NCBI RefSeq assembly: GCF_004210375.1
Contig: NC_134834.1
Span: 17,725,027 to 17,789,026, forward strand
Direction of reading: 5' to 3'
From: Tachypleus tridentatus
Lineage: Eukaryota > Arthropoda > Merostomata > Xiphosura > Limulidae
DNA length: 64,000 nt
Both the position numbers and the translations under genes were made by a program. Position 1 is the first letter of the stretch, and each line of letters starts with the position of its first letter. The notes under the pieces are model-generated. The model searched no databases. It saw only the letters and a list, made by a program, of their open reading frames with translations, and was not told the DNA's origin. Positions 8,801-13,911 of this stretch are shown piece after piece.

Positions 8801-9774
8801 GGTATGATTCAGCCACTCCACTGTAATTGTAAAGTTATAACTATAACTCTTCCTGTATTTTTATTATCTATTTTGCCCCTTAACACGTTTGAAGAGTAAT
8901 AGTATTAGAGTCAAACTTTCTACTACACCAAACTTAGAATCATAACATTATTGGCTTACAACAAGTGAACTGTTATTTACACATGGTCTGTAGGAGATTT
9001 GATAGTGAATAAGAGGCTTAGTTTTTGGGTCAAGTGTTAACTTAATGTTAGAATTAGTTTTAAATGATACATGTCTTAAAACAAATTTCAGTTTAAGCAT
9101 TTTACTTCAAAGGCTTAAAGCTAGGTGTACCCAATTGCCATGTGCTCCAATACATAAAAGGTCACAACCTCTACAGCTAACTTCTAAACAAACATTACAG
9201 TTCCTGGGATCCAGTGTTAAAGTAACAAACTAACTTAATTCAAGTTTCTTACTGATGCTTTTCTATCCAACACTGACCAGCTGTAGTTTTGTTTGAAGAC
9301 AGCACAATCTTTCCCCACAAACTAATCCAATATACATTAATCTCTCCACTCATGGTAGTCTTTGATTAAAAAGTTAAAAGCTTCCTTTCAAAGCTTTATT
9401 TCCATTGATCTAGATGTTGACTTCCATCATTTTGTAAATTATGGTGACCTAACACGAGGTGATGCAGGCAACAAATTTCAGTGTTATCTGGTAGTGGAAT
9501 TTTAAAAATGGTTAGAACTTTACCCCTGAATTAATTCAGGGAGATAGATAATTACTAGGGCTGAAAGTGTACTTTTAAGAATTGTGAAACCATGGTTTTG
9601 TGATCAAAGTGTTTCCTCAGCATATAGTGGTTCTGACTCATAAGAACTGCTACTTTAAGTTTGATTTCACAATGTATCCAAACAAGTATCTTTTCCAATA
9701 AAAATGGACTCCTACCAATAAATGCTACTTTGGAATATTTTATTCAAGAAAACTTAGTTTTCTGCAGGTGTAGT
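5859..9774. other. Intergenic stretch and Ro60 3' flank, no gene seen
   Basis: Between the Ro60 stop and the RpL7A stop (genes converge). AT-rich with only short frames. The first 550 bp may be Ro60 3' UTR up to AATAAA at 6404. No SINE, transposon end or protein-like frame was recognised. Confidence 0.6.
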
Positions 9775-12700
9775 CTATCCAACTTTCTGCGTAATTTCCT
9801 TTGCCCGAGCCTTCTCGATTTTGGAAATACGGGCTGCAGATTTTGAGCCCACCATGCCACCACCCCAGTGTCTGCGAATCTATGAAGGAAAAACAAACAT
9901 TACACCAAACACTTACTACACTTTAAAGTTCTTCACTGTATGTTACTCCAACATGGATTTCAAACAAAAAAATTAAACAGGTTATTTATAACAATAGATT
10001 ACAGATACAAATTTATTACCAAAATTAGCTTACAAATCTCAGGTTTAAACACGTTAAATTATAAAAGTTTACTTCCATCCACTACCCCCCTTAAAACCAT
10101 AGGAGTGTAACACCCCTGTCAAGAAATTATAAAATATTCGTTACCTCATCATAACGATCGTTGAAATTAGTTTTAATGGCTTCCACCAGTTTACTTAATG
10201 AAGTCTTGTCCTCTCTGAAAATGTTAAAAAAAGCCAATTTTAATTTTTTCAGGCCATTAACCAGCACAAACAAAAAACATTTAGACTGTGCTCAGATTTA
10301 AAAAGCTCGTTTAAAATCAACATTGTGATTCAGGTGAAGAAATTCTAAACATCACAGCACCGTTGTATATTATAGAAACTTAAAGTTGCTTACAATCTTC
10401 AATTTTTTTTAATAAGAAATACAGGCCCTATGAGATTACTCAAGTTAAAAGTAATAATAAGGATGCACTGTTTTTTAAAAGTGAAAACAACAGACCCATA
10501 TCCAACTATAAAAATACACACATCAATTAAAAAATATATCTTAACAACTTGGAATTATGACCACTATATAACCCATTCTTACAACAGACTCATAACATCT
10601 GAAAACTTATTTTTAGCCTTAATACAAAAACACACCCTTAGCACTACTTGTTTTAAACAGTCTACAAGACAGGATGTTAAATTTGTGTTTTGGTTACAGC
10701 AACAGAACTTTTTAAACAAACATTAAAGTGACCAATATATCGAAGTTTTTTTACGTTTATGAACCAAAACGTACGATTTGACTTGAGTGAGGGCTAAACA
10801 GGAGCAAGTCTTCCTTCGGACCACACGACCCAGACGAGACTTGTTCTTCACAATGCAATATGGAACTTCCATTTTACGACACAGAGAGGGCATGAAGAGG
10901 ACCAACTACATTTAAAAACAACAACATTAATAGTGTTCTCACTTAATAATCTGATAAACTTGACAAATTATTACAAGCTCAGTTGATGTCACATTTCAGC
11001 ACAAAATCAGGTGAAGAAATTCCAGCATCACAGCTAAGTCATTTAAAAGGTGACCACTTTCTATAGAAACAAAAATCTCAAGTTGTTTTAGTCTGCTTGA
11101 AATTTTACTTTAAGACTTTGATACCAAGCATAAGTTACATTGGAAGTCTGTAGTATCAATATTTGTTATACTTCTGTGAATGATATAATGACTAAAAATT
11201 GTTTCTAATTCTTCACAAGCAAAGATTTAAAATGCTTACTAACAAAGTTCAAAGGTCCTAGCCAGAAGAGAAAATTGTTTGCCTTACTTTATGTAATATG
11301 TTAAACTTATTTTGAAATAGCAAATATTTACATATATAATGTATAATTAAAATGATTACATGTTACAAAATACTAGTACACTAAAAGTCAAGGTGGTCAC
11401 TTTGTAAAGACTAAAGGTGAGTTATATTATTGGATATGGTAACAGGCAAGCATAATGGAGACAAACCTACATTTGTATTTTTGTTGTTATTAAGTTGTAG
11501 TCCTACCACATAAAAACAGAAAAGGTAATTGATAATGATTTCTTAATTTTGATACAATGGTTACAAGGTCTGTCAAATTGACAGACCTCACAGTTAGGAA
11601 GAAAATAGCCTTACTGAAAAACTAACTTTTGAAATACATGTAGGTTTAAGAGATTACACACATGACACCAAGAACTTGGGGACAAAGAATATATGATGAA
11701 AACCATAGCACAAAAATAACTTTGCATGCTATGGCTACTAACAAGACTTTTCAAACAAATCTTCAGTAAAAATATTTAAAAGTCAGAATTTTCTACACAA
11801 AAACTTGTGTATTGTACTGAGACCATTGCAAAAGGCCTAATATTTACTTTTAAATGAAGAAACTAATATATATAGTTTGATACCAAACCCATTGAAATCT
11901 TTAAAATAGTGGTTAGATAACATTTTGACCTGTCACGAGAGGGTTAATGGCTACTAAGCAGAAGTCAAATAATTAGAAGTTACCACACATCCAAAACATG
12001 TCAACTCACCTCAATTGGATCAACATCATTAGCAATAACTACCAACTGGGCCTTTTTTTGTTCTATCAATGATGTAACCGTATTGCATCCCTGACGTACG
12101 ACCAACTGCCTTTTTGTTGGAACATCTTCCTTCCCTGCTGCTTTGTCTTCAGCCCTCTGACGCAGACGAGCTTTCTTGGCCTGCTTCGACTCGGGACGAT
12201 ATTTATCCAACAAACGAAACAACTGTGTGGCTGTTCAAATGTAAAGATAACTCAACTAAAATTTCAATGTAAAAAACAGTACAATAAAACCTAAACACTG
12301 TGCATAATATATTCATAACTATTTTAAATGAAGGTTACCCTTTGGCATTAGCAAAAACCAACTGAAAAGCACCACAAGTGAATCGTTTGGGACAAAACTT
12401 ACCAACTTGCCGATCCAACGCCTGGGTAAACTGGTTGATGGGAGGAGGCACCTTGAGTCTCTGATACAAAACAGCCTTTTGTCTCTGCAAGCGAACATAT
12501 TTAGGCCATCGCACAAAACGACTAAGATCACGTTTAGGCTGGATGTTTTGACCTAAAGAACAGAACTGGAGTTACGCACTTCCATAAAATACACAATCCG
12601 CCAGTTTTGTGTTTGGAAAGTGTTAACAACAAGAAATAATAAACAATACTCTTTACAATGTAAAAGTATTTCACCGAAAACATTAAAGCACAATCCCACC

Positions 12701-13911
12701 ATTAAACTCCACGCTTCATCAAAGAACCAAATCTACTGAACAAATTCGGTGGGACATCCTACCTGAAGATGAAACTGTTTATCAGCAGCTAGGGCCTAGC
12801 TGGTACAAAGAAAGAACCAAGCATCATTGGCCATTTGCCACTGGCATACTAGCTACTCACCAATCCCGAAGTTACGAGGTCGCTTCTCATAGAGTGGGTT
12901 CACAACCTTTTTCACTTCAGTCTTTTTAGTGGCCAAAGGTGCAGAAGCTACCTTCTTCTTACTTTTCTTCCCTTTTATCTGTAGAGATGAGATATATTAC
13001 AATTAAATGAATACTTCATCGAGCATTTCAAGTTCATTTGAGAATAAATTTCATCTACCAAGTTCCCTTTCACGAAGTACTGACGTACTACCAGTAGTAT
13101 CCAAAAGCTAAATTGTATTGATACTCATATATTTAATTACTTACGATTAGGTCTGCTAATTCTATAGCCTGGCAATTATTTAAAACATTCACAATATTTG
13201 TTCATGATAAAAATACACATTAAGTATTTTAAATTATACCTATAAATTAGATATCCGCTTGTCTTAATTCTACACTTTTAAGTAATTAATCAAAGTTTAC
13301 ATATTTTAATTTTTCACTAAACTAATTTTCCAGTACGTTCCATTTACACAGCTTTTAAGTTTTAAACAATGGCGTGTTTTGTAAGTTCATATAACTGTCC
13401 AATCATATGTCGATTATAAACCAATCACAACAGTTATGAACTAATCTCGTGGCGAAACCTATTCCACGGTACAACTACAATTAACACGTTGCCGGCCTAA
13501 CAATTTAAAACCATTTTATTTGAAAATAAAGTGAACGAAAACTTGAAGCTAAACTTTAATAATAAGCCATTGTGTATAGCTAACTCAAGTCTGTGAAATT
13601 GAAAAACTTCAGAGTAGGACAAAGAAACGTTGAACTACCACACACTTATTTTTTTTTTACTATTTACGACTTTTTGTTTCTTATTTCTTAATTTTAATTG
13701 AATATTAATTAAATGATTGTGGTATAATAACTATAAACATAGTTATAATAAACAGGAAATATTTACTGTTACAGTGATGGCGACATGCAGCAGATGGAAG
13801 TTAAGCATCTCATTGTAGAGAAAGACAAAATCGCAAATTATTAAATACATCTGTTATAATTTATATATGCTAACAAATACTCTCTTTAACACTTACCTTT
13901 TTCTGTACCAT
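9775..13911 (-). CDS. RpL7A: 60S ribosomal protein eL8 (RpL7A), complete gene
   Basis: Seven coding exons in transcript order: 13897-13911, 12861-12978, 12403-12552, 12010-12230, 10775-10905, 10145-10214, 9775-9879. They total 810 nt, 269 codons plus stop, against 266 residues in human RPL7A. All borders are GT-AG and all phases agree. Recognisable blocks are a lysine-rich N terminus ([11 protein letters not shown]), [33 protein letters not shown], the L7Ae/L30e RNA-binding fold with [15 protein letters not shown] and [19 protein letters not shown], and the C-terminal [14 protein letters not shown]. The protein binds rRNA in the large ribosomal subunit. Exon 1 holds only M-V-Q-K-K, the usual ribosomal-protein arrangement with an intron close after the ATG. 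Introns 4 and 5 each contain a C/D snoRNA. No breaks are visible. A likely poly(A) signal (AATAAA on the minus strand) is at 9739-9744, giving a very short 3' UTR. Confidence 0.97.
10288..10360 (-). ncRNA. SNORD36: C/D box snoRNA U36-like, copy 1 (RpL7A intron 5)
   Basis: Read on the minus strand: stem GUGC, box C GUGAUGU, guide AGAAUUUCUUCAC, box D' CUGA (10330-10333), box C' UUGAUUU, guide ACGAGCUUUUUAA, box D CUGA (10292-10295), stem GCAC. The guide before D' is a perfect antisense of the 28S segment GTGAAGAAATTC; that before D is a 13-nt perfect antisense of the 18S segment TTAAAAAGCTCGT. By the D+5 rule the targets are the second A of GUGAA in 28S and the first A after UU in 18S. These are the targets known for vertebrate U36 (18S A668, 28S A3703), also hosted in RPL7A introns. 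The 3' end lies about 73 nt from the intron's 3' splice site, the usual spacing. Confidence 0.9.
10976..11035 (-). ncRNA. SNORD36: C/D box snoRNA U36-like, copy 2 (RpL7A intron 4)
   Basis: Minus strand: short stem AGC, box C GUGAUGC, guide GGAAUUUCUUCAC, D' CUGA (11008-11011), a possible C' GUGCUGA, then box D CUGA (10979-10982) and stem GCU. The D' guide matches the same 28S GTGAAGAAATTC as copy 1. The segment before D (AUGUGACAUCAA) differs from copy 1, and I do not recognise an rRNA target for it. The 3' end is about 70 nt from the 3' splice site. It is a paralogue of copy 1 that keeps the 28S guide and has lost or replaced the 18S guide. Confidence 0.8.
11389..11970 (+). repeat. Dispersed repeat, copy 1 (RpL7A intron 4)
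   Basis: Begins near GGTCACTTTGTAAAGACTAA and ends near TGTCACGAGAGGGTTAA. Collinear with 44082-44740: shared blocks include the start, ACCTCACA..GAAAATA, GGGACAAAG, CAGTAAAAA, TACAAAAACTTG and the CACGARAGGGTTA end. The copies differ in length and in roughly a third of bases by eye. No coding frame; family unknown. Confidence 0.65.

Follow-up and report, generated by a model that had tools for sequence, protein, structure and literature searches.

U36-type box C/D snoRNA sequences in two neighbouring RpL7A introns of Tachypleus tridentatus: a predicted dual guide and an apparent 28S-only paralogue

Do the introns of a chelicerate RpL7A gene carry guide RNAs of the family found in vertebrate RPL7A, with the same rRNA targets, and has this family stayed with its host gene since the common ancestor of both groups? 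The question arose from a sequence-only reading of a 64-kb stretch of the genome of Tachypleus tridentatus (the window, to which the positions in Table 1 refer), in which two U36-type snoRNAs had been noticed in neighbouring introns of RpL7A. Both were recovered in the present analysis, one with a high-scoring match to the Rfam family and one just below its threshold, in a host gene with an open eL8 frame. As a whole, and including the guide action predicted below, the locus can be interpreted with high confidence as a pair of box C/D snoRNAs that are encoded in introns and belong to the U36 (SNORD36/snR47) family.

The host gene was recognised from its protein. Six coding exons with GT..AG borders can be spliced to give a 264-aa open frame, and a comparison of the RpL7A query with the PDB gave as top matches the eL8/L7a chains of solved ribosomes (E 3.1e-126, residues 4–266 of 266). 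RpL7A is a single-copy gene in the T. tridentatus genome, within the reach of the protein search, since all six matches (11 of 11 candidates were scored) fall in exons of one gene. The first exon, which carries the start codon, was looked for and not located; six exons were found from 12978 downwards, and the intron numbers used here presuppose one exon upstream of that position. On the eL8 protein, the intron which houses copy 2 lies at DPIE|LVLF (phase 0), and the intron which houses copy 1 interrupts the S codon of VKS-EDK (phase 2).

Table 1. Positions in the window of the RpL7A gene, its two snoRNA-bearing introns, the snoRNA sequences and their predicted guide elements.
Feature	Position	Strand	Basis
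RpL7A (eL8) coding exons 2–7: 12978-12861, 12552-12403, 12230-12010, 10905-10775, 10214-10145, 9879-9775	9775..12978	-	spliced open frame
RpL7A intron 4 (GT..AG), houses copy 2	10906..12009	-	exon boundaries keeping the eL8 frame open
snoRNA copy 2, SNORD36-like, predicted guide for 28S only	10974..11036	-	Rfam RF00049, below gathering
copy 2, predicted 28S guide GAATTTCTTCAC 11011-11022, then D' box CTGA 11007-11010	11007..11022	-	complement of own 28S
RpL7A intron 5 (GT..AG), houses copy 1	10215..10774	-	exon boundaries keeping the eL8 frame open
snoRNA copy 1, SNORD36 (U36), predicted dual guide: 28S via D', 18S via D	10287..10360	-	Rfam RF00049
copy 1, predicted 28S guide GAATTTCTTCAC 10334-10345, then D' box CTGA 10330-10333	10330..10345	-	complement of own 28S
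copy 1, predicted 18S guide ACGAGCTTTTTAA 10298-10310, 2-nt spacer, D box CTGA 10292-10295	10292..10310	-	complement of own 18S

Copy 1 matches the Rfam model SNORD36 (RF00049; gathering threshold 30 bits) over its full length, model positions 1–77, with 70.1 bits and an E-value of 8.2e-10 in the 64-kb window. With zero gap to D', it carries 12 nt of perfect antisense to GTGAAGAAATTC of its own 28S rRNA. A second stretch, ACGAGCTTTTTAA, is a perfect 13-nt antisense to TTAAAAAGCTCGT of its own 18S rRNA and is separated from D by 2 nt; of the two copies, only copy 1 possesses it before D. The C box is GUGAUGU, D' and D are both CUGA, and the terminal stem is GUGC/GCAC.

Copy 2 scored 27.1 bits against RF00049 (E 0.28) in a permissive search of the 4 kb between positions 9600 and 13600. 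It thus missed the gathering threshold, and is therefore named SNORD36-like; it is also absent from the seven matches obtained when the SNORD36 model was run on the whole genome. Its boxes are GUGAUGC (C) and CUGA (D' and D), with a terminal stem of about 3 bp. Directly ahead of D' it has the same 12 nt, GAATTTCTTCAC, perfectly antisense to the same 28S sequence, and in its predicted action copy 2 resembles U36 through this D' guide. The elements GCTGTGATG and GAATTTCTTCACCTGA are common to both copies (4 nt apart in copy 1, 3 nt apart in copy 2).

Targets were sought in rRNA genes of the same genome. The references consisted of one complete 18S (L017, 6971-8775), in a stretch half of which reads N, and two overlapping partial 28S copies, L036 (model positions 1–2445) and L027 (1889–3399); a full rDNA unit was not obtained. 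The 18S target lies at position 622 of the L017 copy. The 28S target lies at position 2496 of the LSU match in L036 and at position 167 of that in L027, the flanking sequence being different between these copies. The complementarities to both subunits, as claimed in the sequence-only reading, thus hold against the rRNA of the animal itself. The methylated base is the one which pairs with the fifth nucleotide ahead of D or D'. By this rule, the predicted 28S site of both copies would be the second A of GTGAA, and the predicted 18S site of copy 1 would be the first A of TTAAAAAGC (TT-A-AAAAGC).

Both copies have the features of box C/D RNAs, i.e., a C box of the type RUGAUGA, a D box CUGA and a short terminal stem, with the final base of the C box off consensus in each. 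Both are sense to RpL7A and lie within introns, as is expected of intron-encoded snoRNAs, at about 70 nt from the 3' splice site; this spacing had also been proposed from the letters, and the measured distances from the 3' end to the last intron base are 72 nt for copy 1 and 68 nt for copy 2. In mammals, a spacing of about 70 nt to the 3' splice site favours snoRNA processing. Folding energy gave no signal for either copy when compared with 200 shuffles each: z was -0.60 and -1.22 for copies 1 and 2, respectively, and 53/200 and 23/200 shuffles were equal or better. Strong folding is not expected of C/D RNAs.

The course of events in T. tridentatus would probably be as follows. RNA polymerase II would transcribe both snoRNAs within the RpL7A pre-mRNA; the host introns would be spliced out and debranched, and exonucleases would trim them to the C/D core, which would join fibrillarin, Nop56/58 and 15.5K. 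For intron-encoded C/D snoRNAs, this sequence of splicing, debranching, exonuclease trimming and core protein assembly is established knowledge. Both copies could then guide 2'-O-methylation of the 28S adenosine opposite the fifth nucleotide ahead of D' (GTGA-A), and copy 1 could additionally guide that of the 18S adenosine opposite the fifth nucleotide ahead of D. As to the order of duplication, copy 2 would be the product, its 18S guide having been lost or never having been present.

Human SNORD36A, SNORD36B and SNORD36C have RPL7A as host gene. They address the same two rRNA sites, which are divided between RNAs: 18S-A668 is reported to be guided by U36A and 28S-A3703 by U36C (PMC2653536), and 18S-A668 is assigned to SNORD36A/B in PMC8817022. 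Tachypleus copy 1, in contrast, is predicted to guide both; copy 2 is similar to human U36C in its predicted function as a 28S guide. In chicken, RPL7A introns are described as containing two U36 copies (GGgCD18a/b), both of them predicted dual guides for these sites (PMC2653536), and the claim that vertebrate RPL7A introns host U36 with the same two targets agrees with this report. The likeness consists of two paralogues in two introns of RPL7A and, for copy 1, of a 28S guide on the 5' side and an 18S guide on the 3' side of one RNA. Unlike chicken, where both copies are predicted to be dual, Tachypleus has a copy without the 18S guide. Beyond animals, a table of C/D snoRNA targets of the LECA has entries for yeast snR47 and plant U36 at the corresponding LSU and SSU adenosines (PMC3511168), and U36, snR47 and AtU36a share the Rfam clan CL00051; U36 with these two targets is old. 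Since the targets are old and chicken RPL7A contains two dual guides, the Tachypleus pair represents a further member of a known family.

Whether the host gene is equally old for this family is a different matter. Slightly favoured is the notion that U36 has been a continuous resident of RPL7A introns ever since chelicerates and vertebrates shared an ancestor, and that it was duplicated and sub-functionalised independently in each lineage; both Tachypleus copies would then descend from a bilaterian RPL7A-hosted U36. The other explanation, that the shared host is a coincidence and U36 entered RpL7A introns independently in the two groups, appears somewhat improbable, and has substantial arguments on its side. 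SnoRNAs are mobile, and those in equivalent conserved introns are reported not to be orthologous across eukaryotes (PMC3511168); SNORD24 resides in RPL5 of a sponge and in RPL7A of man (PMC3412847). SNORD24 is also hosted by chicken RPL7A (PMC2653536), and in the T. tridentatus genome it was not found above threshold, the best of 59 scored candidates reaching 29.7 bits versus the required 41; a search of positions 9600-13600 yielded no match at E ≤ 10. It may have been lost, may be too diverged, or may have been missed by the first-look search. Against independent entry stands that in Tachypleus as in chicken, according to the report on the latter (PMC2653536), U36 occupies two RPL7A introns, and that copy 1, like the chicken copies, combines the same two targets in a single RNA. 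Among the papers listed from the open-licence literature, neither a printed report of a chelicerate RpL7A with U36 nor a comparison of RpL7A introns was found, and the main text of a preprint on snoRNAs of Drosophila S2 cells (PMC13228274) mentions neither RpL7A nor U36.

The locus adds chelicerates to the range of a known guide-RNA family, together with both rRNA targets and the host gene. If residence in RPL7A has been continuous, the association would be among the oldest fixed associations between a snoRNA and its host; it would counter the picture of pure mobility, in which only the expression pattern is conserved, and would provide a dated case of a snoRNA that has kept its place throughout Bilateria, so that mobility models could be tested on it. 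If it has not been continuous, the result would be routine annotation.

Another question concerns the state of copy 2, which could perhaps be a decaying pseudogene of copy 1, with a degenerated D half and only the D' half still of functional appearance. In addition to the score of 27.1 bits, below the Rfam threshold, the D side would fit such a decay: ahead of D, no complement to 18S reaches 9 nt, the antisense to 18S TTAAAAAGCTCGT is absent, and the best pairing with the animal's own 18S and 28S stretches comprises 9 nt with one G-U pair and lies 7 nt off D. This explanation is considered unlikely, however, as nothing is missing from the box C core, the 12-nt 28S guide, D' or D (CTGA), copy 2 lies about as far from the 3' splice site as copy 1 (68 versus 72 nt), and human U36C, too, is described as a guide for the 28S site (PMC2653536). 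Because no convincing 18S or 28S target is present ahead of D, copy 2 gives the impression of a paralogue restricted to 28S, as human U36C is reported to be.

That the antisense matches arose by chance in an AT-rich intron, with no RNA gene present, is exceedingly improbable, although a lone 11-nt rRNA antisense beside CTGA is not rare (a mean of 2.45 per 64 kb in the control), since the requirement of TGATG upstream lowers the control to 0.2 per 64 kb versus 3 observed, the pattern of box C, 28S guide and D' occurs nowhere else in the genome, and copy 1 has an Rfam E-value of 8.2e-10. These figures come from the following counts. On both strands of the 64-kb window, five CTGA sites are accompanied, at 0–3 nt, by an 11-nt rRNA antisense; three of the five have TGATG at most 75 nt upstream, and these are the guide sites of copies 1 and 2. 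The control consisted of 20 first-order Markov resamples of the window. TGATG-N1-5-GAATTTCTTCACCTGA, i.e., box C, 28S guide and D', occurs twice in 2.17 Gb, both times in RpL7A introns, and the reversed pattern has 0 occurrences in the same 2.17 Gb. For copy 1, a chance origin is refuted by the Rfam match together with the genome-wide pattern count. Two snoRNAs of the U36 family are the preferred interpretation.

Further U36 copies were considered and rejected. With the SNORD36 model, scoring 70 out of 663,167 first-look candidates gave at least seven matches at E ≤ 10 in the whole genome; copy 1 alone among them is strong. The others, at least six, have 29.9–31.7 bits (E 3.3–8.7); five of those six are above the cut-off of RF00049, with 30.3–31.7 bits and E-values of 3.3–6.9. 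In control genomes, the model had matches at E ≤ 10 in 10 of 14, and above the cut-off in none. The six weak places are taken as chance because perfect guides are absent from the four whose alignments were inspected (L003-L006, out of L003-L008) and because none of the six shows the pattern of box C, guide and D'.

Several other observations were made in the genome. Two U2 snRNA-like sequences, each with 47.1 bits (L004:1159-1262 and L005:1824-1927), are located about 240–250 bp from identical weak SNORD36-like matches, on one contig and 0.3 Mb apart; the two places resemble duplicates of a single repeat that includes a U2-derived piece. A 28S probe of 129 nt had 44 matches on 13 contigs, most with 86–98% identity. 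At L019:5124-5253 there is an isolated 28S slice of about 130 bp (positions 2195–2324 of the Rfam LSU model), which suggests a dispersed element that includes a 28S fragment; at least one other match of the probe (C19:64105801) is part of a longer 28S copy, in L036. For an 18S probe, 40 matches were scored, spread over 8 contigs. In L027, partial 18S and partial 28S are only about 0.3 kb apart, and in L015 the 5' and middle motifs of 18S are present while an exact match of the 3' motif is absent. Hemocyanin_M had 25 matches in the genome, and hemocyanin exons on four contigs (C2, C7, C10 and C13) suggest dispersed or duplicated hemocyanin clusters. When two of the hemocyanin exons were compared with solved structures, the closest chains were those named "hemocyanin subunit type II" (including metcyanin II) and "hemocyanin AA6", with about 158–169 bits; chains of these two kinds derive from a horseshoe crab and a scorpion, in support of a chelicerate animal. 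The next chains for the two exons had 83 bits (with 1hc1, a crustacean chain named arthropodan hemocyanin, at 80 bits) and 88 bits.
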